Shown piece after piece: positions 1,863-42,107 of a stretch of 45,569 nt of DNA; position 1 is the first letter of the stretch; every line of letters starts with the position of its first letter. The notes under the pieces are model-generated. The model searched no databases and was not told the origin of the DNA. It worked only from the letters and a program-made list of their open reading frames with translations. Location: NCBI GenBank assembly GCA_017540265.1, contig JAFYBJ010000005.1:1-45569 (forward strand), read 5' to 3'. Position numbers and translations under genes: made by a program. This stretch comes from Lachnospiraceae bacterium. Its GTDB lineage: Bacteria; Bacillota; Clostridia; Lachnospirales; Lachnospiraceae.

Positions 1863-1871
1863 CCGTCTCTC

Positions 1872-13177: not shown

Positions 13178-13181
13178 ATCT

Positions 13182-18209: not shown

Positions 18210-18244
18210 TCTTAAATAAACTCCATATGCACACAATCTCTAAC

Positions 18245-18289: not shown

Positions 18290-18318
18290 TTGCGGCATCG
18301 TCCCTGCTGTGTTATATT
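18290..18318 (+). promoter_or_regulatory. Promoter for the plus-strand acetyltransferase gene
   Basis: -10 TATATT (18313-18318) has TGT just before it (extended -10) and TTGCGG 17 bases upstream as a weak -35. Only seven bases separate the -10 from the ATG at 18326, so the predicted first base is at or next to the start codon. A second candidate -10, TATAAT at 18264-18269, would give a ~50-nt leader, but that leader has no Shine-Dalgarno sequence. Confidence 0.45.
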
Positions 18319-18325
18319 ATCTGTC

Positions 18326-26429: not shown

Positions 26430-27169
26430 ATTATCCTCCCTACAAAATGCTTTAAAGCCGCCAGGCCATATTCCGTATAATGACCAAACCTTGAACGCGG
26501 CGCCGCATTATACTCAAATAATTCCTCATAACGGCAGAAATGCTCTCCGTGGCATTTTAAAAGCTCTTCATATTCCTTAAAATCTTTTTCCTCCATCATC
26601 CCCGTATGTACGACAAAAGTGGTGATGCCGTTCTTTAAAACTCTGAGTTCAAGACTTTTAAGCAGGGATATTGGAAGAAAAACGAGACCGCCCATGGAAT
26701 AAGGACGTATGCCAAAGCCGTCAGTCACATATTTAAAGCCGCATTTTTTAAGCGCCTTAAGAGATGTCTTATCGAAGGAATGCGCCGGCGCCATGAATAT
26801 GTCCGTATCAAGCCCTTCTCTTTTTAAGCATTCCTTTCCATGCTTTATAAGCTTAAGCTGTTCATCATACTTAAGATCTGCAAATTCCGAATAATCATTT
26901 AAGGGAAATAACCCGCCTTTATCTGATGTATATACATGAAAGCAGCCATGCATGGCTAAAGGATACCCCTTATCTTTAAGCTCCCTTATAAAAGAAAAAT
27001 CCTTATCATCCCTGATCGGCGCCACATCACTGCTCTCATCCCTGTTGTCAGGTATCACACCCAAAAGAGCATTTAAGCCGTAACTTTCAATAAGATCGAT
27101 AAAACGGAAAAACTTTTCCTTATCCATCCCCGGTGTGACATCATCTATTCTTACGGCAATACGTCTCAT
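26426..27169 (-). CDS. DUF2334 polysaccharide deacetylase-like protein
   Basis: 247 aa. The NodB-like fold is shown by the N-terminal RIDDVTPG (Asp9, Asp10), the histidine pair in MHGCFHVY (His74 and His78, spaced as metal ligands) and the later FMAPAHSFD. This is the DUF2334 branch. No signal peptide or membrane segment is seen, so it should be cytoplasmic, as some deacetylases acting on lipid-linked or nucleotide N-acetyl sugars are. It may remove an acetyl group from a GlcNAc-type residue in this glycan. The start and the flanking overlaps are tight. Confidence 0.8.
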   Translation of the reverse strand: MRRIAVRIDDVTPGMDKEKFFRFIDLIESYGLNALLGVIPDNRDESSDVAPIRDDKDFSFIRELKDKGYPLAMHGCFHVYTSDKGGLFPLNDYSEFADLKYDEQLKLIKHGKECLKREGLDTDIFMAPAHSFDKTSLKALKKCGFKYVTDGFGIRPYSMGGLVFLPISLLKSLELRVLKNGITTFVVHTGMMEEKDFKEYEELLKCHGEHFCRYEELFEYNAAPRSRFGHYTEYGLAALKHFVGRIM

Positions 27170-28695
27170 CTGAAATCGTCCAGTCCCGTATCATCCAAAA
27201 ATACTACCATCACCCCGTCTATGATATTTACGGCCCCTTCAGCCGGCCACATAGGCATTTGAGCAAACTCTTCTGAGGCAACGATCTTCTTTTTCTTCTT
27301 TTTCCCTACGCCTCTGTGATCCGTAGCGCAAAACCAGTTCATAGCGGAGATATACGTACTTTCCGATGTGAGAAATTTACCCGAAGAAACGCCAAGCATC
27401 ATGGGAGCACTCTCCACATACTCGGGGATATCGTATGTATTACCGAATATTGCCACATCCATATCCTCCGTATAACCGGGCATGGCTTCCATCCTTGCAA
27501 GTATGCGGTTTATCTCATTCTCGGTATTTTTATTTGCAAGATACATTTTTTCATATGCCTCATTTGATATCACGGCAAAATGAAACACTATAAGAAAGAT
27601 AAAAACATTAAGCACAGGCCTTATGTATTTAACGGCTTTATCCTTTATGTTAAAACGTTCCGCAAGCATAAAAGGAACGATATACACAAAGCACATGCTG
27701 TATCCCATTATCACGGAAAGATATGAAACATCCGGACTTATAAAGAAGAATATATGGGTGGCAACGGGCAAAAGCAGCATAAGTATGCATATGAGGCCTG
27801 CCCGGAGCGGAGCATCCTTTGCTTTTTTCTTAAATAACAAAACAGCACTTAACACGGCTATGATAATAAAAAGCAGCACGTTTGAGATGTTGTAGAATTC
27901 AGGTTTCCACCTGACAAGATAATAACGCGCAAATTCAATATATGAATTCTTAAATGAGCGTATGATCCTTTCCATGGAAAAACCTTTCGAATCCGCGATC
28001 CCCATATAGTTGATCATATCTATCTTAAGAAGCATCATTGAAAGCTTCATGCCGGGAAAATATATAAGAAGCCCCGTCACACCGCAGGCCAGAAAATACA
28101 GGGATTTTTTCAGTATTTCTTTAACACTCTTTTCTGCATCAAGAAGCATAAGGAACAGAACTGTCATAAACAGCACTATCGTTACCGAAAGATATGCCTG
28201 ATAAAATGCAAGGGAAACGGCAAGACATACTCCGCCAAGGGCTGCATGCTTCATGTCATCTTTCTTAAGGGTCACATATGCTGCAGCTACAGCCATGAGC
28301 ATACCGAAAAAATAACCGTCGGCCGTATACATGAATGCAAAAGTGCCGGTAACCGAAGGAACCGCCGCCATCACCGCTGCAAGCAGACACTGCGCGGTCT
28401 TATCCTTTATATCAAATATGCGCCTGACAAGCACAGCCGCCAACGCGATATAAAAAAGAGAAAGCAGGCCTATAAGCCATGTTGCTTCCCTTGCCCCTCT
28501 TGCCTTTTCTACCATCGGCAACAGGAATCTGCCTATTGATACCGTCCAGCTTACGGAAATACTTTCAAGATAATTAAAAGCATCTTCGCAGAAAAATTTA
28601 TTGGTAAGCCTGAAACCGTGTGCCACAAAGCCCGCTATAAGCGCAGACAGAAAAACCCTCCTGTCCGATGCGTCAGCTTTCTTCAGAATTTCCAT
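27166..28695 (-). CDS. GtrII-like (glucosyl transferase II) membrane protein
   Basis: 509 aa with many membrane segments. The early motif WTVSIGRFLLP after an acidic loop (FCEDAFNY) and the later LAFYQAYLSV are characteristic of the Gtr II family, which adds glucose from undecaprenyl-phosphate-glucose to exported polysaccharide. A run of six lysines lies in the C-terminal soluble part. AAAGGAG sits four bases before the ATG. It follows directly after the GtrB-like gene, the usual pairing, and a GtrA domain occurs in the 37071-39065 fusion. Confidence 0.75.
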   Translation of the reverse strand: MEILKKADASDRRVFLSALIAGFVAHGFRLTNKFFCEDAFNYLESISVSWTVSIGRFLLPMVEKARGAREATWLIGLLSLFYIALAAVLVRRIFDIKDKTAQCLLAAVMAAVPSVTGTFAFMYTADGYFFGMLMAVAAAYVTLKKDDMKHAALGGVCLAVSLAFYQAYLSVTIVLFMTVLFLMLLDAEKSVKEILKKSLYFLACGVTGLLIYFPGMKLSMMLLKIDMINYMGIADSKGFSMERIIRSFKNSYIEFARYYLVRWKPEFYNISNVLLFIIIAVLSAVLLFKKKAKDAPLRAGLICILMLLLPVATHIFFFISPDVSYLSVIMGYSMCFVYIVPFMLAERFNIKDKAVKYIRPVLNVFIFLIVFHFAVISNEAYEKMYLANKNTENEINRILARMEAMPGYTEDMDVAIFGNTYDIPEYVESAPMMLGVSSGKFLTSESTYISAMNWFCATDHRGVGKKKKKKIVASEEFAQMPMWPAEGAVNIIDGVMVVFLDDTGLDDFR

Positions 28696-29617
28696 ATATC
28701 TCCTTTATTACATACTGGGGATAAGCATTCATGCAAATATAGAGCCTGCCCACATATTCTCCTATAAGCCCCAGCATTATCATTATCATCCCGCCAAAGA
28801 AAATGAGCACGGCCATTAACGACGAATATCCGAGCATCCTGTCGGGCAGGACAAATTTCTGTATCACAACTATAATTCCGTATATAAAGCCCAGAGCAGC
28901 GGATATGATCCCTAAGCAGGTAGCCACCCTCAAAGGCTTTATTGAAAAAGCCGTAAACCCGTTCATCCAGAGATTTATAAGCTTTGAAAAGGTATATCCG
29001 GATTCACCGATCTCCCTCTTCTTATGCTCAACGTCCACATTTACTATGGATCTCGTGGTTCTGAGAACAAGGCCTATCACATAGGGATAGGAATTCTCGT
29101 AGCGTATCATTTCATTTACGACCATGCGGTTTACGGCAAAATAACTTGAAACAAAAAGATCCTTTGGCTTGCCAAGCATAAACCTTGCCATTTCCTCATT
29201 CATCATCGAACCGAAATTTCTGAATAATGAATGTTTCTTTTTCCCGTATCTGGCATATGCTGCATCCGCCCCGTCTTCTATTGCTTTAATGAGCTTTATG
29301 CTCTCCGAAGGCGGCGTCTGCCCGTCGTCATCAAGGCATATGCATATATCACCCTTTGACTGTCTTAACCCCGCCATAAGCGCAGCATGCTGACCGAAAT
29401 TCCTTGCAAAATCAATCACTGTCACATGATCATCACTGTCACTTATTCTTTTTATGACATTTAAGGTATCATCGGGAGAACAATCGTTTACAAGTATCAG
29501 CTCATAATCAAAGCCTTCAAGCTTAAGCGCCGCCTCTTTAACCTCTGCCGCTACCGACTCTATGGTCTTTTCCGATCTGTAACAGGGGATTATGTAACTT
29601 ATTATCTTCTTTCCCAT
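28673..29617 (-). CDS. gtrB: GtrB-like undecaprenyl-phosphate glycosyltransferase
   Basis: 314 aa. The GT2 domain starts with YIIPCYRSEKTI and has VNDCSPDDT, ARNFGQHAALMAG and the DXD region CLDDDGQTPP. REIGESGYTFSKL and two C-terminal membrane segments with GLIGEYVGRLY complete the ArnC/GtrB signature. It should make undecaprenyl-phosphate-glucose or a related lipid sugar for the downstream GtrII-like protein. AAGGTG lies five bases before the ATG, and the start overlaps the previous stop by one base. Confidence 0.85.
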   Translation of the reverse strand: MGKKIISYIIPCYRSEKTIESVAAEVKEAALKLEGFDYELILVNDCSPDDTLNVIKRISDSDDHVTVIDFARNFGQHAALMAGLRQSKGDICICLDDDGQTPPSESIKLIKAIEDGADAAYARYGKKKHSLFRNFGSMMNEEMARFMLGKPKDLFVSSYFAVNRMVVNEMIRYENSYPYVIGLVLRTTRSIVNVDVEHKKREIGESGYTFSKLINLWMNGFTAFSIKPLRVATCLGIISAALGFIYGIIVVIQKFVLPDRMLGYSSLMAVLIFFGGMIMIMLGLIGEYVGRLYICMNAYPQYVIKEIYGNSEES

Positions 29618-30141
29618 TAAAGCACCTTTTCCATTTTTATCACATCAAGAGGAATGCCCTCCGGCACTGAAGGCATCACCAGATCATCCGTTTTTTCAAA
29701 GCCGTTTCTTTCATAAAGCTTAAGGGCTCCTTCATTATCCGAGAGCACTTTAAGCTCTATCATATGAAGCCCCAGCTCATCCTTTGCATAAGACAGGATA
29801 AGCTTAAGGGCTTCATCCCCATATCCCTTTCCGGACCGGGACTCATCTCCTATGAATATGCCAAATTCCGCACTTTTCCTGTCATTATCTATACGCTGCA
29901 GATATACCGATCCAATGCCGGTTTTATCCTTAAGTTCGATAATAAACTGCTCCGTTGAACCCTTATCCACTTTTTCCCTTATCCACTTAAGATGCCCTTC
30001 TTTTGTAAGGGGAAGCCTGTAAATAAAATGAGACGTGACAAAAGGAGAATTCCGCCATTTAAGTATATTCGCCGTATCGTCTACGGTCATCCGTCTTAGA
30101 TCAATTTTTTTCCCCTCTATGATATCCGTTCTGCTTTCCAT
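29617..30141 (-). CDS. GNAT N-acetyltransferase (RimJ/L or PseH/WecD-like)
   Basis: 174 aa, single GNAT domain. The acetyl-CoA pyrophosphate loop RSGKGYGDEA is clear, with LHMIELKVLSDNEGALKLYERNGFE as the family C-terminal half. The N-terminal ILKWRNSP and EGHLKWI resemble amino-sugar acetyltransferases of the PseH type. With a WecE-like transaminase in the same operon, acetylation of a 4-amino-4,6-dideoxy sugar is a fair inference. AAGGA precedes the ATG by six bases. Confidence 0.8.
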   Translation of the reverse strand: MESRTDIIEGKKIDLRRMTVDDTANILKWRNSPFVTSHFIYRLPLTKEGHLKWIREKVDKGSTEQFIIELKDKTGIGSVYLQRIDNDRKSAEFGIFIGDESRSGKGYGDEALKLILSYAKDELGLHMIELKVLSDNEGALKLYERNGFEKTDDLVMPSVPEGIPLDVIKMEKVL

Positions 30142-30151
30142 TTAAATTCCT

Positions 30152-31822
30152 TTATTCGCCCGGCGCATATATATGATATACGCACCCGTTTTCCTCAATA
30201 TCCTCTATAAGGACGGTCTCATAATCCTCTTTCTTAAAACGCTTTCCAAGATAATGATCCAATTCTTCTTTTTTTAGTCCCACGCCCTCTTTAAGCACAA
30301 ATCTTACGGAAGCTGTCCCGTTCAAAAGTTCTTCCATGTCATTTACATAAAACCGCTTTAATCTGTCCTTAAAGGCCGGTGATCCCGAGGTCCAGCCCCC
30401 GCCGTGCAGCATATTATCCGGGCAGGGATATATCACCGCATCCACATCCGCATAGGTATCCGTCACAAATATTTCCTCCGGATGCCGGGTTACATAAGAG
30501 TATAACACAAGAGGAGCCCTGTTTGCATCCTCAAGGCTTTTCAGGTCTGTTTTGATGCTCCCCGGCAGGGTTAATGCCATAAGTATAACCGGCACGATAA
30601 ACTGCCTTAAATCAGGCCTTTTATGAGAAAACGCGACGGCAATGCCGGAAAGATAAAGTGACACGACAACGCGTTCCGGATAGCGTCCCCTGTATATCAG
30701 ATAGCCGTAAAGAAGAAAGTGCAGGCAGATAAAAGCTGCCAGTTTAACACCACTTATAATATCCTTTTCTTTTACTGCTGTGATAAGCATCATAAGCCAT
30801 GCTATGATAAGAACGAGCACATATACACCATTATCATCCGGAGAAAAAGTCTCCTTTCTTAAAACCCACAGTGTATCCTTTATCTTCTGCCCGGTACTTT
30901 TCCTTTCTTTTTGCGGCACATAGGAAGCCATTTTGTGCATGAGTCTGCCGTCTATCCTTTCATCAAAAGATATGTCATAAGCAGACATGACGGCTAAAAG
31001 ATCCTCATCCACTCCCAGGCTCTCATACAGTGAAAGAGCTTCTTCCTCAGGCCATATGCCGGTATAATCATAGAGTTCAGTCCTGGCATTATTATAATCA
31101 ATATATTCCCTGTAAGATCCTTCCTTCATTGCCGCTCTGTCCGCAAGAAAAAGAACGACAAATACAAAAAGTGCAATAGCAGCTTCCTTTAAAAAATCTT
31201 TTACTCTTTTCTTATCCTCAGCCCTTATGAACACTAAAAGCTTCATCCCTGCGATGACAGATACAAAGGGAAGAAACATTAAAAACACCTGCTCCCTGAT
31301 CTGATCACACAGTATGAGCAATATATATGCCGGTATCCGCTCGTCCCGTTCTTCCGATAAAGACAGTAGAAAAATACCTGTTCCCCCTGCTGCTGCCGCA
31401 ACAAGGGTGTAATGAAGGAAAAGCATATCCTTCAGAAAAAAAGCAAAAAACGCCGCAGCACATATGCACGGGATCACAAATGATCTGAGGTTGAGACCTG
31501 ACGGATCATTTCTTTTTGAAAAATAAAAACAGATAAACAGAAGGCAGATAAGATAAGTACCTTCAAGGAGTATATCGTAAAACTGTATTCCGGGTAAAAA
31601 CCTGTATAAAAGACTTAATAAAAAAGCAAGCGGGACCCGCAGATATATGGTCTTATATTCCGGCTTGCCGGAAAAACTCCCGTCTAAAAGACTTTTTAGC
31701 TGAAGGTCATCGTTTAGTATATAGGCGTGATCCGTTATAAGAAAAGTAAAAAAGAAAAAAACTGCCGGAATAAGAATGGCCGGAACAAGCCCTGCTATCT
31801 TCTTCTTATCAGTCCAAGCCAT
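30152..31822 (-). CDS. Polytopic membrane protein, GT-C-like, function unassigned
   Basis: 556 aa. There are many hydrophobic segments in the first ~430 residues, then a soluble C-terminal domain. After TM1 an acidic dyad occurs in ILNDDLQLK, a position typical of GT-C catalytic loops, and RGRYPERVVVSLY precedes a late segment. I do not recognise a named family. The ATG at 31822 overlaps the preceding GT4 gene by 28 bases and has AAAGGA ten bases upstream. It is one of six large membrane proteins of this kind in the locus. Confidence 0.55.
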   Translation of the reverse strand: MAWTDKKKIAGLVPAILIPAVFFFFTFLITDHAYILNDDLQLKSLLDGSFSGKPEYKTIYLRVPLAFLLSLLYRFLPGIQFYDILLEGTYLICLLFICFYFSKRNDPSGLNLRSFVIPCICAAAFFAFFLKDMLFLHYTLVAAAAGGTGIFLLSLSEERDERIPAYILLILCDQIREQVFLMFLPFVSVIAGMKLLVFIRAEDKKRVKDFLKEAAIALFVFVVLFLADRAAMKEGSYREYIDYNNARTELYDYTGIWPEEEALSLYESLGVDEDLLAVMSAYDISFDERIDGRLMHKMASYVPQKERKSTGQKIKDTLWVLRKETFSPDDNGVYVLVLIIAWLMMLITAVKEKDIISGVKLAAFICLHFLLYGYLIYRGRYPERVVVSLYLSGIAVAFSHKRPDLRQFIVPVILMALTLPGSIKTDLKSLEDANRAPLVLYSYVTRHPEEIFVTDTYADVDAVIYPCPDNMLHGGGWTSGSPAFKDRLKRFYVNDMEELLNGTASVRFVLKEGVGLKKEELDHYLGKRFKKEDYETVLIEDIEENGCVYHIYAPGE

Positions 31823-33024
31823 ATCCCAAGCATCCTTTCTTCCGAAAACCGTGCTGCCAACGCAGGCGCTTTTGACCTGTAGCTTTCATAAAGCTCTGAA
31901 TCAGTAAGGAGTCTTAATACACCGCTAAAAAGATGTTCCTCAGCCTTATCATCCTTTATTTCCAGGAAATTTTCTCCGCCGGCATATTCAAAAGGTCTTG
32001 TGAGTACTCCGAAACGTGCGTATTCCACACCATCAGTCTTATATTCAGGATCCGTATCCGGAGCCAGTATCTCCCTTGCCCCGGAAGGCATGTCTGCCGA
32101 CACCGAAGGCAGCCTGCATGCCGCAGCTTCCGTAAGCACCATGGGAAGACCCTCATAGTCCGAACAAAGCACAAACAAGTCACATAATGCCATATATTTA
32201 AAAGGATTCGAGACATTTCCCGGAGCATATACGTGCGATAAGAGCGAAAGCTTTTCAGCCTCCGAAACTATCCTTTCTCTTTCCGGGCCGTCTCCAAGTA
32301 TCACAAGCCCGGTGTCCTCAAGCCCCTTTTCGTTTCTTATACGTCCAAGCAGCTTTATAAGCCTTTCCTGGCGTTTTACCCTTTCCATCCTGCCCGTGCT
32401 CACTATGAGCTTTTTATGTGCTTTTTTAAATTCAAGAAAATCCGCCGGAAGATCTTCCTTAATAAGCCGTTTTATCTTTCCTGTATCCGAGAAATTATAT
32501 ATGACAGAAAGCTTTTTTAACGGCACTCCAAAATTCTCATGCATATCCTTTTTTGCAGGTTTTGATACCATTACATACCTGTCGGAAAAAGCTGCGATAA
32601 AGCGGTGGAAAAGCCTGTGGGCAAATGTATTCTTTTCATTTACGGAGGGCATCGAATGATATACGCTTATGCAGCGCATCCTGTTCCCTGCCTTTCCGGA
32701 AAGCACATTAACAAGATCGGGACCGTCCAAATGGCTTATGACAGCCGCCGGCTTAAGATCCCTTTTGTATTCGTAAAGCTTCTTTGTCCTTTTTATAACC
32801 GTAAATATGCGGCGTATGAAAGAAGCTTCCCTCTCAGGCTTAAGCTTCATATCCACCAGATGTCCGCCATAAGGGTAAATCACCCCCTCACCGTCAAAAA
32901 GGATATAGTAAACCTCATAGCGGGAAGACAGAGCAAGGCTCATATTTGCTGCCATGCGCTCCGCACCTCCCCCGTATCCGTTCTGTGTGAGGATGATCAG
33001 ATTTTTCTTTTTTGCCGCGCTCAT
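31795..33024 (-). CDS. GT4 family glycosyltransferase
   Basis: 409 aa. It begins with a Lys-rich N-terminus and GYGGGAERMAANM. The donor domain has IVSTGRMERVKRQERLI, VILGDGPERE and the EX7E element EGLPMVLTEA, followed by ACRLPSVSADMPSG. Its start overlaps the transaminase stop as ATGA; no good Shine-Dalgarno is visible, so translation is likely coupled. The sequence is closest in style to N-acetylhexosamine GT4 enzymes, but the donor cannot be fixed. Confidence 0.9.
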   Translation of the reverse strand: MSAAKKKNLIILTQNGYGGGAERMAANMSLALSSRYEVYYILFDGEGVIYPYGGHLVDMKLKPEREASFIRRIFTVIKRTKKLYEYKRDLKPAAVISHLDGPDLVNVLSGKAGNRMRCISVYHSMPSVNEKNTFAHRLFHRFIAAFSDRYVMVSKPAKKDMHENFGVPLKKLSVIYNFSDTGKIKRLIKEDLPADFLEFKKAHKKLIVSTGRMERVKRQERLIKLLGRIRNEKGLEDTGLVILGDGPERERIVSEAEKLSLLSHVYAPGNVSNPFKYMALCDLFVLCSDYEGLPMVLTEAAACRLPSVSADMPSGAREILAPDTDPEYKTDGVEYARFGVLTRPFEYAGGENFLEIKDDKAEEHLFSGVLRLLTDSELYESYRSKAPALAARFSEERMLGIWLGLIRRR

Positions 33025-34154
33025 GAAAAACCGTAAAATTCCTTTACCTTTTTGATGATATACATGTTCTCTTCCTCTGTAAGGGAATAATACATGGGAA
33101 GCCTTGTAAGACGTTCACTTTCTTTTGTGGTATATTCATCCTCTCCGCTAAACCTTCCGAAACGCTTTCCTGCCGGTGCGGAATGAAGCGGGATATAATG
33201 AAATACGGAAAGTATACCGTTTTCCTTAAGAAACGTAATGAGCTTTGTGCGTTCTTCAAAGTCTGCGGCCTTTATGTAAAACATATGGGCATTATGATCA
33301 CAGCCCTCAGGTATCACGGGCAGCTCTATCTTCCCTGCATCCTTAAGCTCCCCAAGTTCCCTGTAATAGGTATTCCATATTTCAAGCCTTCTTTCATTTA
33401 TTTCATCCGCAAGCTCAAGCTGGGCATAAAGATACGCGGCATTCATATCACTGGGAAGATATGAGGATCCCTTGTCGACCCAGGTATATTTATCCACCTG
33501 TCCCCTGAAGAACCTGCTCCTGTCCGTACCTTTTTCCCTTATTATCTCTGCATCCTCGATATACCGTTCATCGCGGAGTATAAGTGCTCCTCCCTCACCC
33601 ATACTGTAATTCTTTGTCTCATGAAAAGAATAGCATCCCATATCTCCGATGGCGCCAAGAGCCTTTCCTTTATAGGAAGACATCACTCCCTGTGCGGCAT
33701 CTTCTATGACGATAAGAGAATGCCTCTTTGCTATATCCATGATCGTATCCATCTCACAGGATACTCCGGCATAATGAACAGGCACTATGGCTTTTGTCTT
33801 TGCAGTGACAGCCGCCTCTATCTTCTGCTCATCTATATTCATGGTATCAGGCCTGATATCCACAAAAACAGGAACCGCACCGCGTAACACAAAGGCATCT
33901 GCCGTAGATACAAATGTGTAAGACGGCATTATCACCTCATCACCTTCCTTTATATCAGCAAGAAGAGCTGCCATCTCCGTTGCATGTGTGCAGGATGTGG
34001 TTAACAGACACTTGGAAGCGCCGGTTTTTTCTTCAAGCCAGGAATTACATTTCTTTGTATATGCGCCGTCACCGCATATCTTCTGGGCTTCTACACATTC
34101 CCTGATATAATCCAGTTCTTTTCCCGTATAGGGCGGTACATTAAAATTGATCAT
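33021..34154 (-). CDS. wecE: WecE/RffA-type dTDP-4-amino-4,6-dideoxygalactose transaminase
   Basis: 377 aa, PLP-dependent DegT/DnrJ/EryC1 fold. Long stretches match WecE: CGDGAYTKKC, EVIMPSYTFVSTA, PDTMNIDE, PVHYAGVSCEMDTIM and EDAAQGVMS. The PLP lysine is Lys181 in SFHETKNYS, followed by EKGTDRSRFFRGQVDKYTW. Known WecE converts dTDP-4-oxo-6-deoxyglucose to dTDP-4-amino-4,6-dideoxygalactose. GGAGG lies nine bases before the ATG. The substrate requires RmlA/RmlB, which are not in the window. A role as the C4 transaminase of a UDP-sugar route beside PseB is possible but less likely from the motifs. Confidence 0.9.
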   Translation of the reverse strand: MINFNVPPYTGKELDYIRECVEAQKICGDGAYTKKCNSWLEEKTGASKCLLTTSCTHATEMAALLADIKEGDEVIMPSYTFVSTADAFVLRGAVPVFVDIRPDTMNIDEQKIEAAVTAKTKAIVPVHYAGVSCEMDTIMDIAKRHSLIVIEDAAQGVMSSYKGKALGAIGDMGCYSFHETKNYSMGEGGALILRDERYIEDAEIIREKGTDRSRFFRGQVDKYTWVDKGSSYLPSDMNAAYLYAQLELADEINERRLEIWNTYYRELGELKDAGKIELPVIPEGCDHNAHMFYIKAADFEERTKLITFLKENGILSVFHYIPLHSAPAGKRFGRFSGEDEYTTKESERLTRLPMYYSLTEEENMYIIKKVKEFYGFS

Positions 34155-35994
34155 TTAACAATTCCTCCAGCATATCCGCAAGGCTTACGCTCTTATATAC
34201 AGTAAAACCTTCATTCTCATAAACAATATTATAGCTTTCTCCAAGCATATATTCCATAAGGGCCATATGCTTAAGTACCGACTCATCATCATCCGTACTT
34301 TTCCTTGAATAACTGTATGTTCCGTTCCCTCCGAAATAATCAGCTTCCTCTGCGGTCATTATTATAAGCGGCTTTTCCTCAGCCTCTGAAAGCTCATCTA
34401 ACTGCGAAGAAAAATCCTCATAGGAAAAACTGCCAAGATCCGGCCAAAGATTGGTCATTGCAGGCTTTATCCCAAGAACATAATTGATCCCGGGTATATT
34501 TCCGTAACATATAAGCGATGTCGCATCCGCAGCATTTTCCCTTACCCAGTCCGTAAGCTCATCGATCGCACTTCCGTTTTCTTCCGTGGTATATATGCCT
34601 TTTAAGGAATTATCACTCTTTATCTTATAATCCCTCGCACCGCCAAACTCAGCATCCCTGAACGTATAGTACAAGCCGAATAACATGGTCTGCATAAGGA
34701 ACACGGCAGCAAACATCACTGTCCAGATATGGTAAAGCACTTTATATTTCCCGTTTCCCGCATCCTTAAGCAGGGAACACATAAGATATGCACTTACCGG
34801 CAGCACATAAAAAAGCCCGTTTATAACGGCAAATATATGATTATTCGTACCTAAGGGCGCGATGATTATCAGAAGGAGCGAAATAAAAGCTGTAAGCCGC
34901 TCTTCCTTATCTGCATTTTTTTTAAAGATAAAGAATAAAAACAACATGGTGGCATAGATCAGATAAACCACGCTAAGCCTGAACACACTGCCGTTGTTTG
35001 TATATTTTGAAGTAAATATGCCCCTTCTGTAAAACCATACAAGAATGACCGCAAGCCCTGCAGTATACAAGGCATAAAGAATGCAGCAGTATTTCCCCGG
35101 TATTTCCTTTGCCTTCATAAACTTCGAAAAGATAAAAGCAGCACATAAAGGGATGATATAGACCAGGGCATAGAGAAGATTCCCGTAATAATTATTCCCT
35201 ATCGTCATTAACATTATCTTAAGGGAATAACCGGAATCCTTATTGCCCGCGGCACCGGTCAAAAGCCCGCTTATCCAGTCATACATAACAAAAATACCGG
35301 AGCCCGCATCCATTCCCGGAGCTTTGATATAAACAAGAAACAACAGGAAAGAAACAGCAAGCCCTGCAAGATACCCCGCTATACACAAGAGCATTGTCTT
35401 TAGAAATAAAGGCTTCTTTTCCTCCTTCCTGTAAAGAAATATTCCGTAAAAGACGGAAAAAACAAGCATCAGTTCCGCGACATTGGATATGCGTACAAAG
35501 GTATTCAAGCCCAGACAGACACCTGCCGCAAAAAAATATATTTCTTTTTTATCCAGGAAGGCAGCAGTTATAAAAAGCACTGCGCCGGTTAAGAAAAAAT
35601 AACTGAGATAATTATACATTATCACACTGGGGCACCAGCATAATCCCAGTGCAGCAGCCAGAGCAGCAGACAGAACAAGCCTGTCCATGCGCTTTCTTAA
35701 AAACAGATAAACCGCAAGCGCACAGGATAAAGGCAGGAGACGGGTAAGAAAATTCATTATTATGAGATTCCCGCCCGATACCCCAAGCAGAGCATGACCT
35801 GCAAGATTTGATACTGCCGTGGCCATATTAAAACTACCTGCCAGCTCCTTCATGAACATATAATTTCCGAGGCTGTAGGTGGTATCAGAAAGATCGGCCC
35901 CTCTCCATATCCCGAAGAATGAAAAAAAGCACAAACATATAATGTAAAAAAACTCAGCCGGCTTTGAAGCCGTGATCTTCTTTAGCTTAGCCAT
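34141..35994 (-). CDS. Polytopic membrane protein, GT-C-like, function unassigned
   Basis: 617 aa, multi-spanning, with a soluble C-terminal ~150 residues. After TM1 comes RGADLSDTTYSLGNY, an acidic loop where GT-C enzymes have their catalytic residue, and later WCPSVIMYNYLSYF. No named family is recognised with confidence. I chose ATG 35992-35994, which has AGGGAG four bases upstream; the frame runs on to a TTG at 36018 that would overlap the epimerase gene by 32 bases. Transfer of a lipid-phosphate sugar outside the membrane is inferred only. Confidence 0.6.
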   Translation of the reverse strand: MAKLKKITASKPAEFFYIICLCFFSFFGIWRGADLSDTTYSLGNYMFMKELAGSFNMATAVSNLAGHALLGVSGGNLIIMNFLTRLLPLSCALAVYLFLRKRMDRLVLSAALAAALGLCWCPSVIMYNYLSYFFLTGAVLFITAAFLDKKEIYFFAAGVCLGLNTFVRISNVAELMLVFSVFYGIFLYRKEEKKPLFLKTMLLCIAGYLAGLAVSFLLFLVYIKAPGMDAGSGIFVMYDWISGLLTGAAGNKDSGYSLKIMLMTIGNNYYGNLLYALVYIIPLCAAFIFSKFMKAKEIPGKYCCILYALYTAGLAVILVWFYRRGIFTSKYTNNGSVFRLSVVYLIYATMLFLFFIFKKNADKEERLTAFISLLLIIIAPLGTNNHIFAVINGLFYVLPVSAYLMCSLLKDAGNGKYKVLYHIWTVMFAAVFLMQTMLFGLYYTFRDAEFGGARDYKIKSDNSLKGIYTTEENGSAIDELTDWVRENAADATSLICYGNIPGINYVLGIKPAMTNLWPDLGSFSYEDFSSQLDELSEAEEKPLIIMTAEEADYFGGNGTYSYSRKSTDDDESVLKHMALMEYMLGESYNIVYENEGFTVYKSVSLADMLEELLNDQF

Positions 35995-37066
35995 AAAACT
36001 CCCTGTACCATGATGCAAATCTTCTAAGCCCGGTCCTTAGATCCGTGGAAGGTTTATAACCATGATCCCTTTCAAGCGCGGAAGTATCCGCATATGTGAC
36101 CGCCACATCTCCCGGCTGCATGGGAAGCAGCTCTTCATGGGCATTTATGTCAAAATCTTCAGTCAGGACTCCTGCCGTTTTTAACTCTTCGGAAAGAATA
36201 TGTACAAAATCCATAAGTCCCACGGGAGAACTGTTGCCTATATTATATAAGGCATAGGGAGGCACCGGCAGACCGTCCTCACCGTTCTTTTTCTCCGGTG
36301 CAGCCTTCATCACTCTGAGCACACCTTCCGTTACATCATCCACATAAGTGAAATCACGCAGGCAGTTTCCGTTATTGAATATCTTTATCTTTCCGCCTTT
36401 TACAAGTGTATCCGTAAAGCCGAAATACGCCATATCAGGGCGTCCCGCCGGTCCGTAAACCGTAAAGAAGCGAAGCCCCGTAGAAGGTATGGAATAAAGC
36501 TTTGAATAAGAATGGGCAATAAGCTCATCAGCCTTTTTGGTTGCGGCATAAAGCGACACCGGCTCATCCGTCTTTGCCTCTACCTTATACGGTATATCAG
36601 GTGAACTTCCATATATGGAAGACGATGATGCATAAACTAAATGTTCCACGCCCGGCGCACCGTTATCATAGGAATGCCTGCAGGCCTCCAGTATATTATA
36701 AAAGCCTGTTATATTGGTCTCTATATATGCATCCGGATTTATGAGCGAATATCTGACACCGGCCTGTGCCGCAAGATTTACCACTACGGCAAAGGGATAC
36801 TTTTTAAACAGCTCATTTATCATATCCCTGTCAGCTATGCTCCCTTTTATAAAATTAAAATCAGAGGATGATGCTTTTACGGCTTCTTCTATAAGCCCCA
36901 GCCTGTATTCCTTTATCTTCACATCATAGTAATCATTCATATTATCGATCCCTATGATATGCATATTATCATCTTCCCCCAGCATGCGAAGCACAAGGGA
37001 AGCGCCTATGAATCCCGCCGCTCCGGTTACCAGAATATATTTATCTTTAAGTTCTATTTTCTGCAT
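35987..37066 (-). CDS. NAD-dependent epimerase, UDP-glucuronate 4-epimerase-like
   Basis: 359 aa, extended SDR fold. TGAAGFIG binds the dinucleotide and YAATKKADE supplies the YXXXK pair. GIDNMNDYYDV, YGPAGRPDMAYF and MQPGDVAVTYADT are typical of UDP-glucuronate 4-epimerases (Cap1J/LpsL group), which make UDP-galacturonate. ATG 37064-37066 is preferred because AAGGGA sits seven bases upstream; a GTG precedes it directly. UDP-glucose dehydrogenase is not in the window. A galacturonate residue would be a natural target for amide formation by an ATP-grasp enzyme, but this link is speculative. Confidence 0.85.
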   Translation of the reverse strand: MQKIELKDKYILVTGAAGFIGASLVLRMLGEDDNMHIIGIDNMNDYYDVKIKEYRLGLIEEAVKASSSDFNFIKGSIADRDMINELFKKYPFAVVVNLAAQAGVRYSLINPDAYIETNITGFYNILEACRHSYDNGAPGVEHLVYASSSSIYGSSPDIPYKVEAKTDEPVSLYAATKKADELIAHSYSKLYSIPSTGLRFFTVYGPAGRPDMAYFGFTDTLVKGGKIKIFNNGNCLRDFTYVDDVTEGVLRVMKAAPEKKNGEDGLPVPPYALYNIGNSSPVGLMDFVHILSEELKTAGVLTEDFDINAHEELLPMQPGDVAVTYADTSALERDHGYKPSTDLRTGLRRFASWYREFYG

Positions 37067-37070
37067 CACT

Positions 37071-39065
37071 TCATCCCTTTTTGAATATCCATAATTTACT
37101 GAAGAAATAATTAAGGATTATCACCACGACTCCTATGATAAGTTTGGCTATAATATCATTCATTATAAGTATGGCTCCGGAGAAAAGTATCTGTTCCACC
37201 ACAAAGGAAAGGACCCTCGCAGCAGTAAAGGCTGCAAATTCCTTCATCACCAGAACAAAGCCATGCTTATCGCTGTGAAAAACAAATATCCTGTTTGTGA
37301 TATATGCAAAGAGCACCGCCGCCACCCAGGCAACGAAATTTGAAAAGTTCTCTCTTGCATAATCATTTGTTATTATACCCTTAAAGAATGAATATGCACA
37401 GAGAACATAAACAAGCCAGTTTATTACTGTGGTAAGACCTCCGGTTATCAGATAATCAAAGGTCTCTTTCTTTGAATAATAGAGCTTTAAGCACATATCC
37501 GCCAATTTCTCGAAGGAGTTGAAAATATATGACCTTATGATATCCACTGTTATTCCTGCAATAAATATAAGTATCAGACTGTATATATATTTCAATATAA
37601 AGTCTGATAAATTTTCCGCTCCCGTAACACCTATCCAGCGAGGCCAGCGGTAGCGGATAAATACATGCTCATGAAGAAGATATACGCCAAGCACATAGGG
37701 AGCTGTTCCCTTTATGAGCTTAGACAGAAATCCTTCTTTGATCTTAATACCCCTGAAGAAATAAACCAGACCGAAAGAGGCGGTGAGCACAAAGATATAA
37801 TTATAAGCTGAAGGCACGGTGATGGCGTAATCATTAAAGGTAGTATCCTTCATAAGTCCCGCAAACAGACCATAGGAGAGGTATGTAAGAAATACGGATG
37901 CAATAAAACATATAAGTCCCCTTCCCTTCTTTTCCATGAAGGCAAGGCCGTATTTTCCGGCATAGGCAGAAGCCAGGTAGAGTATTACAAACCATATAAC
38001 ACCAAGCCCCCTGTCATCGATCAGTTCAAAAGGCATTACGGAACGTCCGATACACCAGAATGCCAGCAGGACAAGAGAAGTCACCCTGTGGGTGCGTTCA
38101 TCCAGATTCTTTATCCCTGCATTTAAAAACGGCATAATAAGATAAAGGATAAAATAAGCTCCCATAAACCAGTAATGCCCGTTCATCACGGGAAGCATCA
38201 TAAACAGGAGATTATAGATATTAAAATACTGAACTATAAAAGTATTATCTCCGTTTAAATATGCATATGCATAAAAACCTGCGCCTATTAAAGCGCTGTA
38301 AAAGAAGATCTGAAGCCAGAGCATCGCGGCATGTCTCAGACAGAAGCGCGACTTATATCCATACATACCTGATATGATCACATAGACGTTCACGCAGGGA
38401 AGGCATGCTGCCTCCAAAAGCCATGGCAATGACTGGAAAGCATTAGGCTTCACTTCAGGAAGATATTCACCTTTCCCGAGAAAATGAAGCGTTATCACCA
38501 TGAGCATGGCAACTATCCTAAGCAGTTCTATGCCTGCCTCTCTCTTATTATCTTTCCTGTTATCTTTCTTTATATCCTTTACATCCGCATCTTCATTCTT
38601 TAATGATTTTACATACAGGAGTTTTTCTTCATCCTCTTTTGCAAGACTGTAACCCAGTCCTTCAAATACTGCTTTTGATGCCGGATTCGAAGTCTTTACA
38701 TACGCACAGAGTTCCTTTATCCCTTCTGCGGCCGCATCCTTTCCAATTTCCTTCTCAACCATGGCAAGTTCTTTTTTTCCTATCCCCTGCCCTCTGAAGG
38801 ATCTGTCCACACTATAGCTTATATAAGCCTTAGACGCATCTTCTTCATCCCTTTCTATGCGTACCTGGCCAAGAGATGCAAAGAAATCCATGCAAACATA
38901 AAGGATCACCGATCCATCATTAAGCTTCTTCTTAAACCACTCATCATGAGCTTCCGGTTTTATTTCTTCCGTGTTGAAAGAAGCCTGCCTCACTTCCGGA
39001 TCGTTTGCCCAGTCAAGATATCTTTTTTTATCACCTTCGTTTGCTTTTCTAAGATATAAACTCAT
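37071..39065 (-). CDS. Three-domain fusion: GNAT, acyltransferase-3 and GtrA-like flippase
   Basis: 664 aa. Residues ~1-155 are a GNAT domain with YLDWANDPEVRQASFN and acetyl-CoA loop RSFRGQGIGKK (88-98); this sub-type is often fused to or next to PseG. A charged linker (~155-176) leads to an acyltransferase-3 domain (~177-515) with ELLRIVAMLMVITLH (Arg183, His194) and about ten membrane segments. The last ~135 residues are GtrA-like: YLITGGLTTVINWLVY, AYITNRIFVF and NYFFSKLWIF. The domains have separate known roles: N-acetylation of an amino sugar, O-acylation, and flipping of a polyprenyl-phosphate sugar. The frame is continuous, and the start is in an ATGA overlap. Confidence 0.85.
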   Translation of the reverse strand: MSLYLRKANEGDKKRYLDWANDPEVRQASFNTEEIKPEAHDEWFKKKLNDGSVILYVCMDFFASLGQVRIERDEEDASKAYISYSVDRSFRGQGIGKKELAMVEKEIGKDAAAEGIKELCAYVKTSNPASKAVFEGLGYSLAKEDEEKLLYVKSLKNEDADVKDIKKDNRKDNKREAGIELLRIVAMLMVITLHFLGKGEYLPEVKPNAFQSLPWLLEAACLPCVNVYVIISGMYGYKSRFCLRHAAMLWLQIFFYSALIGAGFYAYAYLNGDNTFIVQYFNIYNLLFMMLPVMNGHYWFMGAYFILYLIMPFLNAGIKNLDERTHRVTSLVLLAFWCIGRSVMPFELIDDRGLGVIWFVILYLASAYAGKYGLAFMEKKGRGLICFIASVFLTYLSYGLFAGLMKDTTFNDYAITVPSAYNYIFVLTASFGLVYFFRGIKIKEGFLSKLIKGTAPYVLGVYLLHEHVFIRYRWPRWIGVTGAENLSDFILKYIYSLILIFIAGITVDIIRSYIFNSFEKLADMCLKLYYSKKETFDYLITGGLTTVINWLVYVLCAYSFFKGIITNDYARENFSNFVAWVAAVLFAYITNRIFVFHSDKHGFVLVMKEFAAFTAARVLSFVVEQILFSGAILIMNDIIAKLIIGVVVIILNYFFSKLWIFKKG

Positions 39066-40090
39066 TTTCTCAATTCCCTGTATTTAAACAGCAGCACATA
39101 TTTTATAAAGAACAGTATATTGCTCTTTTGCTGCAGCTTTATGAATGAAAGATTTTCCTTATCCGTATATTCTGAAAGATATTTATTATCAAGAAAATCC
39201 GGAAGATTTTCTCTAATGTATCTTTTTATTTCTGCCGTAAAGGAAGGCTTCCTTCCGCGACCCGAATACATGTATGAAAAAAGCGTGGTAACATAGGATA
39301 ATTCAGTGAATCTGTAATCTATCTCTTCTTTATACCTTTCATACAGATCCCTTTTTTTGCATTCCAGGATAAATATCCTTCCGGCTTCCATCCGGTCCCT
39401 GCACTTTTCAACGCTTACGGTATGGGTAGTCGAAGACTGCACTGTAAGATATTTATAAAGAGGTTCGGGCACATATGCGAAATTCTTAAAATACATTGAC
39501 CATAAAGGAGCCGCACAGTTATCTTCATAAAATATATCTTCCGGAAACGAAAGCTCATTATCCTTTATAAGAGACGCCCTGTATATCTTTGTGACCGACG
39601 ATCCTCCCCTGAGTATAAGGCTCTTATGTTTGTCATCGTCGAGCACACCTGTCTGCTCAATGGTATTGTTTGCGACCGGCTTTCCGTTTTTATCCCCGTA
39701 GAAGCTTACCAGTTCATAATCGCAGCCGCATACATCCGCTCCCGTTTCCTCCGCGCATCTTATAAGCTTTTCAAACATAAGAGGATCCGCGTAATCATCG
39801 CTATCCATGAAGCCTATCCATTCGCCGTCTGCAAGCTCCATTCCCCTGTTCCTGGCGCCGCCCTGCCTGTGATTTTCTTTCGAAAGTATTATCTTTAAAG
39901 CACCGGGCCTTATGGCATTAAGGCGCCCTTCGTATTCCTTAAGTATATCAGGGGATGAGTCCGTTGATGCATCATCAACCGCGATGATCTCCATATCCTT
40001 TAAGCTCTGGCCAAGCAGGGAATCAAGACAGTGCTTAAGTCTGTCCCCCTCAGCCATATTATAAACCGGTACTATGACTGAGAGTTTCAT
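39062..40090 (-). CDS. GT2 family glycosyltransferase
   Basis: 342 aa. GT2 elements appear in order: VIVPVYNMAEG, VDDASTDSSPDIL, RQGGARNRGME and the DXD site FMDSDDYADP; FYEDNCAAPLW lies at the expected acceptor region. The C-terminal ~100 residues are helical and end with a hydrophobic stretch rich in Phe, perhaps a membrane-surface anchor. Start and preceding stop overlap as ATGA. It belongs to the capsule/teichoic GT2 type; the donor is unknown. Confidence 0.85.
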   Translation of the reverse strand: MKLSVIVPVYNMAEGDRLKHCLDSLLGQSLKDMEIIAVDDASTDSSPDILKEYEGRLNAIRPGALKIILSKENHRQGGARNRGMELADGEWIGFMDSDDYADPLMFEKLIRCAEETGADVCGCDYELVSFYGDKNGKPVANNTIEQTGVLDDDKHKSLILRGGSSVTKIYRASLIKDNELSFPEDIFYEDNCAAPLWSMYFKNFAYVPEPLYKYLTVQSSTTHTVSVEKCRDRMEAGRIFILECKKRDLYERYKEEIDYRFTELSYVTTLFSYMYSGRGRKPSFTAEIKRYIRENLPDFLDNKYLSEYTDKENLSFIKLQQKSNILFFIKYVLLFKYRELRK

Positions 40091-41112
40091 TCAAACAACA
40101 CCCCGGCTATACGCCCGGCCCCATTGCCATCCACAAGGCGCTTTCCTCTCCTCGCGCATTCCTCTCTTTTTTTCGTATCCTCTGCATAGACTTTTATCAC
40201 GGCTGTCATTCTTTCGTAGAAACCCTCATCCCTCACATCGCCTGCATATTCAAAGATATCTTCATCCAAAAAACCTCTGATATTATCTTTTTGATTATCG
40301 GCAAGGCAGTACATTATCCCGGGCGTTCCCGTTGCGGCAAGCTCATAGAGCGTGGTTCCTCCGGCGCTGATACATATATCTGCAGCTTCCAGCTCACCCT
40401 TAAGCGTCGGTATCTCTGAAAGCACGGTAACACAGGTAAGCCCTTCTGCCTCTTTTTTCAGTTTATCCAGATCCCTGTTAAAGCGTCCGGCAATGAGCTT
40501 TATCTCAAAACCCTTTAAAGGCTCCGTCTTTGATCTCTTTAAAAAGTTCAAAAGAAAATGAGCTTCATCACCACCGCCTGAAAGAACTAACAGCTTTTCC
40601 GCCCGCTTTTTTACAGTTCTTTCTTTATCAATATCGGAAATATACTCCTCTCTCAGAGGCATGTAATCCGGGCCCAAAAGAAGACGGGTATTCTCATATT
40701 CCCTTTCGTAAGGATAAAAATGAGCGCTCATCGAGTAATTGATGAGAATATCCACGGGCCAGATATCTTCATGAAGATCATCGATGTATGCCGTTTTTGT
40801 AAATGAACTTAATCTCCCAAGATAATCATTTGTAACATAATAGCTGTCTATTAAAAGCCTTTTTATATCTCTTTTTTTTATAAGCTCTTCCATCAGAGGA
40901 AGCTCTGATCCAAGATCCTTAAAATCAGTACCCAGCACTACGGTCTCAAATCCCTTTGATTTTGGAAGCTTTGCAGAGCCAATCTCTGCTGTTATAAAAA
41001 CAGCTTCTTTTCCTGCTTTTCTTGCAGCCTCCGCAACATTAAGACACCGCATCATATGTCCGGATGCGGTGACCTCATTTGCTTCTGTACGGATAAAAAC
41101 GGTATCCTTCAT
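40087..41112 (-). CDS. pseG: PseG-like UDP-sugar hydrolase / GT28-like protein
   Basis: 341 aa. The N-terminus with TASGHMMRCLNVA puts His19 where PseG has its catalytic histidine. LLIDSYYVTNDYL, LLLGPDYMPLREEY and SGGGDEAHFLLNFL are also family segments, and the C-terminal half has CISAGGTTLYELAATGTP, the UDP-binding motif. PseG removes UDP from 2,4-diacetamido-2,4,6-trideoxy-L-altrose in pseudaminic acid synthesis. It follows PseB directly, but PseI and PseF are absent, so it may instead act as a hydrolase or transferase in another route. Confidence 0.75.
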   Translation of the reverse strand: MKDTVFIRTEANEVTASGHMMRCLNVAEAARKAGKEAVFITAEIGSAKLPKSKGFETVVLGTDFKDLGSELPLMEELIKKRDIKRLLIDSYYVTNDYLGRLSSFTKTAYIDDLHEDIWPVDILINYSMSAHFYPYEREYENTRLLLGPDYMPLREEYISDIDKERTVKKRAEKLLVLSGGGDEAHFLLNFLKRSKTEPLKGFEIKLIAGRFNRDLDKLKKEAEGLTCVTVLSEIPTLKGELEAADICISAGGTTLYELAATGTPGIMYCLADNQKDNIRGFLDEDIFEYAGDVRDEGFYERMTAVIKVYAEDTKKREECARRGKRLVDGNGAGRIAGVLFE

Positions 41113-41117
41113 ACCCC

Positions 41118-42107
41118 TTAATCCAGATTTGCAAGCCGCTCTCTTATCTCTTCAACAGAGAGCCACTCTGAATTTGAACCGGAGGAATAGGAAAAGCCCT
41201 CAGGCACTCTCTTTCCCGTAGGCGAAGGCATACGTCTGCTGCTCCATACCATCTGCGGATAAATGATAAAATGCTTTTCATATTCATAGGTATTGGGAGC
41301 ATCTTCCACAGTAACCATGATCTCATGGAGCTTTTCACCTTCCCTTATACCGACCTCCGGTTTCTCACAGCCGGGAAGCATAGCCTCTGCCAGATCCGTT
41401 ATCTTAAAGGAAGGTATCTTTGATATAAAAGTCTCACCGCCTTTGGATTCTTCAAGAGCCTTTATCACAAGCTCCACACCTTCTTTTAACGATATCCAGA
41501 AACGTGTCATCCTGAGATCCGTGATCGGGAGAGCCTTCTCACCGTTTTCTATCTTCTGTTTAAAGAAAGGGATAACCGAGCCTCTGCTTCCTGCCACATT
41601 TCCGTAACGGACTATGGAAAAACAAATATCGGAAGGACCTGCATAGGCATTTGCGGCAATAAACAGCTTATCCGAAACCAGCTTGGTTCCTCCGTAAAGA
41701 TTGACGGGATTTACAGCCTTATCCGTAGAAAGCGCCACAACCTTTGAAACGCCTGTATCAAGAGCTGCCTCTATTACATTCATGGCCCCGTGTATATTAG
41801 TCTTTATCGCTTCATTTGGATTATATTCACAAGCCGGCACCTGCTTTAAAGCGGCGGCGTGAATTATATAATCCACACCGTTAAGAGCGCGGCGCAGTCT
41901 GTCACCGTCCCTTACATCGCCTATAAAGAAACGCAGCCTGTCTTTATATTCAGCAAATTCATTCTGCATATTAAACTGCTTGAATTCATCTCTGGAATAA
42001 ATGATAAGCTTCTTCGGATCACCGTGCTCAAAGGCATAACGCACAAAGGCTTTACCAAATGAGCCTGTACCTCCCGTTATAAGTATTGTCTTTCCGTCAA
42101 GTATCAT
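41118..42107 (-). CDS. pseB: PseB-like UDP-N-acetylglucosamine 4,6-dehydratase (5-epimerising)
   Basis: 329 aa, short-chain dehydrogenase fold. TGGTGSFG (11-18) binds NADP. The catalytic Thr-Asp-Lys is at 128-130 in ALSTDKAVNP, with Tyr138 and Lys142 in LYGGTK. SRDEFKQ, FFIGDVRD, HAAALKQVPACEYNP and VRYGNVAGSRGSVIPFF match PseB closely. GEKLHEIM and a YSSGSNSEWL tail follow. Related dehydratases of the FnlA/CapE branch share most motifs. AAGGAG lies nine bases before the ATG, and a palindrome occurs just upstream in the 45-bp gap from glf. Confidence 0.9.
   Translation of the reverse strand: MILDGKTILITGGTGSFGKAFVRYAFEHGDPKKLIIYSRDEFKQFNMQNEFAEYKDRLRFFIGDVRDGDRLRRALNGVDYIIHAAALKQVPACEYNPNEAIKTNIHGAMNVIEAALDTGVSKVVALSTDKAVNPVNLYGGTKLVSDKLFIAANAYAGPSDICFSIVRYGNVAGSRGSVIPFFKQKIENGEKALPITDLRMTRFWISLKEGVELVIKALEESKGGETFISKIPSFKITDLAEAMLPGCEKPEVGIREGEKLHEIMVTVEDAPNTYEYEKHFIIYPQMVWSSRRMPSPTGKRVPEGFSYSSGSNSEWLSVEEIRERLANLD

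Follow-up and report, generated by a model that had tools for sequence, protein, structure and literature searches.

A GNAT–AT3–GtrA fusion protein conserved across one Lachnospiraceae genus: parts, relatives and a proposed role

The fusion gene and its surroundings

The window analysed here, a stretch of 45,569 nucleotides, is one whole contig of an assembly that is 73% complete and comprises 67 contigs. Positions 37071–39065 form a single unbroken minus-strand reading frame with an ATG start that encodes 664 amino acids; the plus strand is closed by stops. The initial annotation had described one continuous frame joining three domains, and both the frame and the domains are present, but on the minus and not the forward strand. 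Three Pfam matches, each above its gathering cut-off, agree with the proposed identity and order of an N-terminal GNAT acetyltransferase, a membrane acyltransferase-3 (AT3) domain and a C-terminal GtrA domain, and the junctions placed earlier near residues 160 and 525 both lie in the gaps between these matches. The start of the fusion overlaps the end of the upstream GT2 gene by 4 bases (ATGA), and the gene downstream begins 1 base beyond the fusion end. The parts of the fusion and the neighbouring genes are as follows.

37071..39065, minus: GNAT-AT3-GtrA fusion gene, 664 aa (Pfam; same architecture across the genus)
38649..39059, minus: GNAT domain, residues 3-139, PseH-like N-acetyltransferase (PF13302 Acetyltransf_3, 48.4 bits, cut-off 25.4)
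38541..38615, minus: charged GNAT-AT3 linker, residues about 151-175, of variable length (relatives' alignment)
37560..38537, minus: AT3 membrane acyltransferase domain, residues 177-502, with R183-x10-H194 (PF01757 Acyl_transf_3, 79.8 bits, cut-off 31)
37083..37454, minus: GtrA lipid-sugar flippase domain, residues 538-661 (PF04138 GtrA_DPMS_TM, 54.3 bits, cut-off 26.1)
41118..42107, minus: PseB 4,6-dehydratase (TIGR03589, 524.6 bits, over cut-off)
40087..41112, minus: PseG-type nucleotide-sugar hydrolase (TIGR03590, 156.3 bits, over cut-off)
39062..40090, minus: GT2 glycosyltransferase, overlapping the fusion start (domain match and 4-base overlap)
35987..37069, minus: NAD-dependent sugar epimerase/dehydratase, directly downstream of the fusion (PF01370)
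34141..36018, minus: multi-TM protein, putative outside (GT-C-like) glycosyltransferase (14 TM peaks; D45 conserved after TM1)
33021..34154, minus: WecE-type 4-amino-4,6-dideoxysugar transaminase (TIGR02379, 648.6 bits, over cut-off)
30152..31822, minus: multi-TM protein, putative GT-C-like, with conserved N-D-D after TM1 (TM peaks and conserved residues)
29617..30141, minus: second, standalone GNAT, a sugar N-acyltransferase (TIGR03585, 89.3 bits, just below the cut-off of 93.1)
28673..29617, minus: GtrB/ArnC-type polyprenyl-phosphate glycosyltransferase (PF00535; best NCBIfam match ArnC PRK10714, 187 bits, below the cut-off of 529)
27166..28695, minus: GtrII-type membrane glycosyltransferase, GtrC role (PF14264, 152 bits)
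16476..18236, minus: PglK-like ABC exporter, whose homologue often stands ahead of GtrA-AT3 outside the genus (PglK model, 364 bits, below the cut-off of 1000)

Neither multi-TM protein (34141..36018 and 30152..31822) matches any NCBIfam family, or any Pfam family above its cut-off; acidic motifs after TM1 occur in GT-C enzymes. Candidate partners of a Gtr system, the GtrB-type GT2 at 28673 and GtrII at 27166, are encoded ~7-10 kb from the fusion. Because this ArnC/GtrB-type GT2 stands beside GtrII, and because GtrA is matched two times in the window genome (73% complete), once in the fusion and once in a frame of 365 aa, it is plausible that the fused GtrA serves as the flippase of a Gtr-type system. 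A further standalone GtrA lies by the fusion in 15 of 35 genomes of the genus, so that the fused copy need not be the sole flippase; none lies by the fusion in the window genome.

Conservation within the genus and relatives outside it

AT3 and GtrA share one frame in 34 of the 35 genus genomes, 28 of which carry a full or shortened GNAT in addition; the sole exception, G414 (72% complete), gave no fusion match. All three domains are present in full in 23 of the 34. GNAT is shortened in five (G405, G406, G411, G422 and G426), broken by a frameshift in one (G401) and absent from five (G397, G400, G425, G399 and G423). The triple fusion is carried by the records of Lachnospiraceae bacterium NK4A179, XPB1003 and NC2008, none of which bears a metagenome-bin label in its title, and the AB2028 record, likewise without this label, has the fusion without GNAT. 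Most of the remaining fusion-bearing records are marked as bins, several of them from rumen or gut. Genus-wide conservation and the records not marked as metagenome-assembled rule out an assembly error or a frameshift artefact. The initial annotation had considered that relatives might show three separate genes and an artefact at this place; separate genes do occur in other genera, but within the genus the fused frame is conserved. We regard the fusion as a new combination of known parts that is real and conserved in the genus, its function being inferred.

Among 26 aligned fusions, identity to the window protein reaches down to 37%. Where estimable, dN/dS amounts to ~0.02-0.21 per domain, the GNAT of G401 aside (27 pairs that share 70% AT3 identity or more, a set that excludes the window protein, whose nearest relative is at 58%, and in which dS is near or above 1 in many pairs). 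For GNAT, values of 0.33-0.60 are confined to pairs that include the frameshifted G401; the shortened GNAT gave 0.08-0.11 in four pairs, and two further pairs were saturated. By this measure every domain is under purifying selection in close pairs. In a tree of the AT3-GtrA part, in which several branches are long and G401 was entered as full, all 34 fusions fall on one side of a branch with 100/100 support and 12 separate-gene rows on the other, and GNAT was lost at least two times and shortened at least two times.

The two joints of the protein differ. The stretch between GNAT and AT3 (residues 143-180), with its K- and E-rich linker, varies from 16 to 56 amino acids among 24 rows. Between AT3 and GtrA (508-538), by contrast, 32 of the 34 rows have 31 residues and the other two have 24. 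Since GNAT is dispensable and AT3 and GtrA are kept together in 34 of 34 fusions, the AT3-GtrA pair is likely to be the functional core.

Outside the genus, no full fusion was found in the sampled genomes of the family (397), order (392), class (391) and phylum (398); these four samples overlap in part, include a few genus genomes, represent Bacillota-level relatives and had at most three candidates scored per genome. Among these Bacillota genomes the full fusion was found only inside the genus, and it was not met as a common, known architecture. Three long GtrA frames that were opened (L253-L255) held no AT3 or GNAT match, and the long frame of G847 (L252) gave a 356-aa AT3. The frames opened are part of a longer list, which also includes a 985-aa GtrA frame in G125. 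A scan of 84,980 species genomes with alignment A1 and two peptide patterns yielded, among the matches listed (80 of 327 confirmed stretches, 78 loci), at least 26 loci with the three domains in one frame, all of them within L132-L163. Six phage and 43 plasmid records matched, none covering 80% of the query.

Other Lachnospiraceae encode AT3 and GtrA separately, often as neighbours, within a surface-glycan operon, a typical order being exporter-GtrA-AT3-34141-WecE-30152-GNAT(29617)-GtrB. We compared 72 of 74 outside-genus AT3 loci, L184 and L189 having given no AT3 gene; the loci stem from two source searches and may include duplicates. The gene after AT3 is a homologue of 34141-36018 in 54 of the 72, and the gene before it encodes an ABC exporter 22 times, GtrA 19 times and a GtrB-like protein 11 times and is unassigned 15 times, with five edge or single cases; GtrA is undercounted here where the gene caller dropped it, as in L187, L190 and L205, where the tblastn match spans GtrA. 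Many outside loci show AT3 without an adjoining called GtrA. Gene order is reversed between the two settings, GtrA-AT3 outside the genus and AT3-GtrA within the fusion, so the fusion did not arise by simple loss of a stop codon. Other joined genes were met as well: G196 has AT3 fused to a 34141-like protein, L180 has AT3 inside a frame of 975 aa, L249 has GNAT fused to PseI, and PseF is joined in one case to PseI and in another to a PLP-dependent decarboxylase.

Key residues and pathway context of the domains

The AT3 part shows 10 and the GtrA part 4 hydrophobic peaks in alignment-averaged hydropathy at a threshold of our own choosing. A weak 15th peak lies at residue 63, inside GNAT. Because the number of predicted helices is even (10 plus 4), both ends of the protein, and hence GNAT, would be cytosolic. 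Arg183 and His194 are kept in all 34 fusion rows with the same spacing as Arg14 and His25 of OafB, from which an R-x10-H motif in TM1 is known (PMC9833829). No model for an SGNH domain matched the fusion protein in Pfam, and GtrA takes the place of C-terminal partner. For GtcA, the portion of PMC7389260 available lists eight residues conserved in more than 99% of homologues (A65, N69, V73, F74, F91, R95, K121 and N132) and reports R95 and N132 as essential and the substitutions A65S, N69A and V73A as harmless. By spacing, these correspond to A587, N591, V595, F596, F613, R617, K641 and N652, present in 34 of 34 rows; the one spacing difference, of two residues in the stretch 95-121, is an indel visible in the alignment. 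Another seven GtcA sites are highly conserved; five of them are kept in all 34 rows, whereas 17 rows have T at the T31 site and 16 have N at the N35 site. With their key residues intact, AT3 and GtrA both look active.

The fused GNAT had been called PseH-like, and much of its gene context fits this description, with PseB and PseG adjoining, but it scores far below the cut-off of the PseH model TIGR03585 (28.8 versus 93.1 bits). We do not claim PseH membership, as the score stays below this equivalog cut-off. None of the model's matches across the 35 genomes of the genus rises above it, and the standalone GNAT at 29617, at 89.3 bits, scores higher on the model than the fused one. The acetyl-CoA loop of the GNAT in the window protein reads RGQGIG and is variable among relatives. 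A PDB search with the A1 fusion profile returned two chains, 3eo4 ('Uncharacterized protein MJ1062') and 1yr0, both aligned to GNAT. With GNAT alone, 21 chains were found up to an E-value of 5, the best at 0.0046; almost all are acetyltransferases, and none is named PseH.

Pse-type genes accompany most of the distant homologues. In nine of ten distant loci (GNAT-only matches of the class and phylum searches) GNAT lies within ~6 kb of PseI- and/or PseG-type genes, L251 being the one without such neighbours. Three of four family-level loci also have Pse genes: the order is PseB-PseF-PseI-GNAT-PseG-PseC in G268 and PseF-GNAT-PseG in G233, and in G196 GNAT is itself fused to PseG. The fourth, in G031, lacks Pse genes in its vicinity. 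Some of the distant GNAT clusters may make legionaminic-type sugars. Of the 35 genus genomes, 33 have PseI, 30 PseB and 27 PseG at scores over the respective cut-offs. Because homologues and genus genomes show this Pse-type gene context, the fused GNAT is probably an enzyme of nonulosonic-acid synthesis, the simplest assignment being the PseH step.

A link between loss of GNAT and loss of the Pse pathway was tested and found no support: all five GNAT-less genomes keep PseI over its cut-off together with a PseG match, and three keep PseB over its cut-off. Three of these five (G397, G400 and G425, forming one clade) hold a standalone GNAT relative of 35-39% identity, and G415 holds one of 40%; none of the four copies stands in a Pse setting. 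In G399, G423 and the five genomes with a shortened GNAT, no standalone relative was found except for matches of 24-26% of the 29617 type. That a standalone GNAT replaces the lost fused one is suggestive only.

A proposed role and its alternatives

From domain content and gene neighbourhood, we propose as the probable reading that the protein is an assembly-line fusion for glycan decoration outside the cell, encoded among the surface-glycan genes of a single Lachnospiraceae genus. GtrA, the 4-TM part, would flip an undecaprenyl-phosphate (Und-P)-linked sugar to the outer leaflet. This Und-P-sugar might be made by the ArnC/GtrB-type enzyme at 28673-29617, a candidate with GtrII adjoining and the WecE-type transaminase and second GNAT near; the GT2 enzymes at 10004-10945 and 12149-13192 are possible alternatives. 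AT3, the 10-TM part, would take the acyl group of acetyl-CoA through the membrane and place it on that sugar or on the receiving glycan, as family knowledge suggests, and the 34141-36018 protein probably transfers sugar outside, beside AT3. Since the AT3-GtrA junction is short and nearly constant in length, acylation and flipping would be expected at the same membrane spot. The N-terminal GNAT, cytosolic on its flexible tether, most likely N-acetylates in the synthesis of a nonulosonic (pseudaminic-type) acid and would be a co-located passenger, not a direct relay, helping to make another sugar of the same glycan. Several observations weigh against this reading: the low PseH score of the fused GNAT, GNAT relatives outside a Pse setting, the incomplete conservation at the T31 and N35 sites, the reversed gene order, the further standalone GtrA copies, the AT3 loci that lack an adjoining called GtrA, the GtrA-independent enzyme of Salmonella described below and the lack of a family match for both GT-C-like proteins.

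A tighter connection between the two membrane domains, in which AT3 acylates the Und-P-sugar during or right after its flip by GtrA and the flip becomes one-way or only the acylated sugar is passed on, appears unlikely to us. Its basis is the pairing of AT3 and GtrA in 34 of 34 fusions with a near-constant junction, together with a GtrA, GtrB-like or exporter gene adjoining AT3 in 52 of the 72 outside loci. Two systems may serve as analogies: TmaT of Corynebacterium, whose acetylation is described as promoting trehalose lipid transport (PMC8698533, in part), and MprF, which combines synthase and flippase in one chain (PMC8131360, in part). Against this stand the occurrence of AT3 without a called GtrA adjoining, and once joined to a 34141-like protein, and the acylation outside the cytoplasm by the best-characterised AT3s covered in the available text of PMC9558356. 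Furthermore, the Salmonella enzyme GtrC-BTP1, an AT3-SGNH acetyltransferase from a gtr operon, acetylates without GtrA or GtrB according to the part of PMC4413052 at hand, and so AT3 need not depend on GtrA. The coupling of sugar acylation to flipping suggested by the initial annotation fits the intact AT3 and GtrA residues and the frequent position of AT3 by flippase or exporter genes; it is a reasonable hypothesis, and unproven. It is similarly doubtful that AT3-GtrA would represent a new class of machine, in which O-acylation of the Und-P-sugar is mechanically coupled to flipping, the tethered GNAT is optional and the relatives form a two-protein complex.

The fusion could instead be neutral or driven by expression, with independent parts whose joining fixes stoichiometry only. 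Same-pathway fusions do recur (GNAT-PseG, GNAT with PseI, AT3 with the 34141-like protein, PseI-PseF), and GNAT has repeatedly been lost or shortened, but retention of AT3-GtrA in one frame in every fusion, down to 37% identity among those aligned and across a junction of nearly fixed length, makes this quite unlikely. Least credible, and in our view highly improbable, is a relay in which GNAT N-acylates a sugar that AT3 then O-acylates. The AT3-only enzyme Lag1 acetylates legionaminic acid (PMC9558356, as far as available), so that a nonulosonic acid is a possible shared substrate. The channelling from N- to O-acylation that had been put forward, however, sits poorly with a GNAT that 11 of 34 fusions either lack or carry in shortened or broken form and that is tethered to AT3 by a linker of variable length. 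If GNAT is the PseH step, the order of the pathway also weighs against it: the PseH product must pass PseG, PseI and PseF before any membrane step, and nonulosonic-acid donors are CMP-sugars, not Und-P-sugars.

With AT3 and GtrA naturally joined throughout the genus, a candidate partner is named, and both activities, along with any coupling of the two, become open to assay on a single chain; the natural GNAT-less fusions are ready controls. The initial annotation knew of no described protein with the order GNAT-AT3-GtrA, and none turned up in the open-access papers searched. The kinds of AT3 protein named in the portions of PMC9558356, PMC12423673 and PMC7448272 available are AT3-only, AT3-SGNH, AT3-racemase and the animal NRF-AT3. 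Neither PMC9558356 nor PMC12423673 uses the term 'GtrA' in its main text, and PMC7448272 does so a single time, where it remarks that F2GtrC is functionally unrelated to GtrABC. In the part of PMC13390465 available, acyltransferase 3 and GtrA are separate proteins of one cluster.

Each part of the fusion has counterparts in known systems. As in the AT3-SGNH O-acetyltransferases OafB and OatA, its AT3 domain has R-x10-H and 10 TM helices and is predicted to transfer an O-acyl group across the membrane, but it is followed by a 4-TM GtrA in place of SGNH and preceded by an extra GNAT. VanT, an AT3-racemase, and F2GtrC and OafB of gtr operons likewise present an AT3 with a fused partner or a gtr-operon AT3; unlike the fusion, they have no GtrA in the chain, and the gtr-operon enzyme needs no GtrA or GtrB (PMC4413052, in part). 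The GtrA domain resembles GtrA/GtcA of three-component Gtr systems in its eight >99% residues, its 4 TM helices and the presence of GtrB-like and GtrII proteins in the same window, and differs in being the C-terminal part of an acyltransferase; proteins of the GtrA type probably form dimers (PMC8035078). With PseH, the fused GNAT shares the family and, for most of the homologues examined, a Pse-type cluster, whereas its score falls below the PseH model cut-off and it is joined to membrane domains. MprF, finally, offers an analogy for a lipid-modifying transferase joined to a flippase in one chain, although its domains are unrelated and its lipid is a different one.

Shortened and disrupted acetyltransferase domains

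Five loci encode fusions of the GNAT-AT3-GtrA type with a shortened acetyltransferase, in which the C-terminal half of the GNAT domain is gone:

L070:14460-16361
L071:12331-14226
L072:13799-15703
L073:13064-14968
L090:8537-10405

In pairs among L070-L073, the GNAT remnant displays dN/dS values of 0.08-0.11 in four of six cases, indicating purifying selection, while the other two pairs are saturated; L090 belongs to no close pair (at least 70% AT3 identity). The remnant perhaps serves a structural role. In the metagenome copy from genome G401 (L079:12415-14256), a frameshift breaks the GNAT part, which may be an assembly error.

Transferases, flippases and exporters of the cluster

The following features of the window accompany the fusion:

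147-3302, MBOAT acyltransferase adjoining an FkbH-like protein
6857-8677, ABC exporter
16476-18236, ABC exporter of the same type, PglK-like
18290-18868, (+), hexapeptide transferase
27166-34154, compact module of a WecE-type transaminase, GT4, multi-TM protein, GNAT, ArnC/GtrB-type GT2 and GtrII
30152-31822, large multi-TM protein, conserved N-D-D after TM1
34141-36018, (-), large multi-TM protein, conserved D after TM1

Pfam and NCBIfam searches of the last two proteins returned no family above cut-off. Both types are common members of the operon, and they are possibly undescribed GT-C-like transferases. The module at 27166-34154 resembles a pathway in which an Und-P-linked N-acyl-4-amino sugar is made and transferred on the outside. 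The MBOAT and hexapeptide transferases add acylation genes to the same cluster, and its two ABC exporters perhaps serve two lipid-linked oligosaccharides. An extra standalone GtrA gene lies near the fusion in 15 of the 35 genus genomes (G397, G398, G400, G403, G407, G408, G410, G413, G415, G418-G421, G424 and G425).

L195, labelled Muribaculaceae, has a Lachnospiraceae-type operon and is nearly identical to L181 in the tree; L170, labelled Gastranaerophilales, encodes an AT3 and a homologue of the 34141-36018 protein that are Lachnospiraceae-like. Both are possibly mis-binned contigs.

Other joinings of the pathway parts

Fusions in other combinations, the last three of them in nonulosonic-acid pathways, are encoded at these loci:

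L094:6246-10638 (another genus), GNAT-PseG (524 aa), then directly AT3 joined to a 34141-like protein (947 aa)
L107:6591-8486, PseF with a PLP-dependent decarboxylase
L109 at 7783, PseI-PseF
L249 at 4971, GNAT with PseI

At L094 the same parts are joined in an alternative manner.
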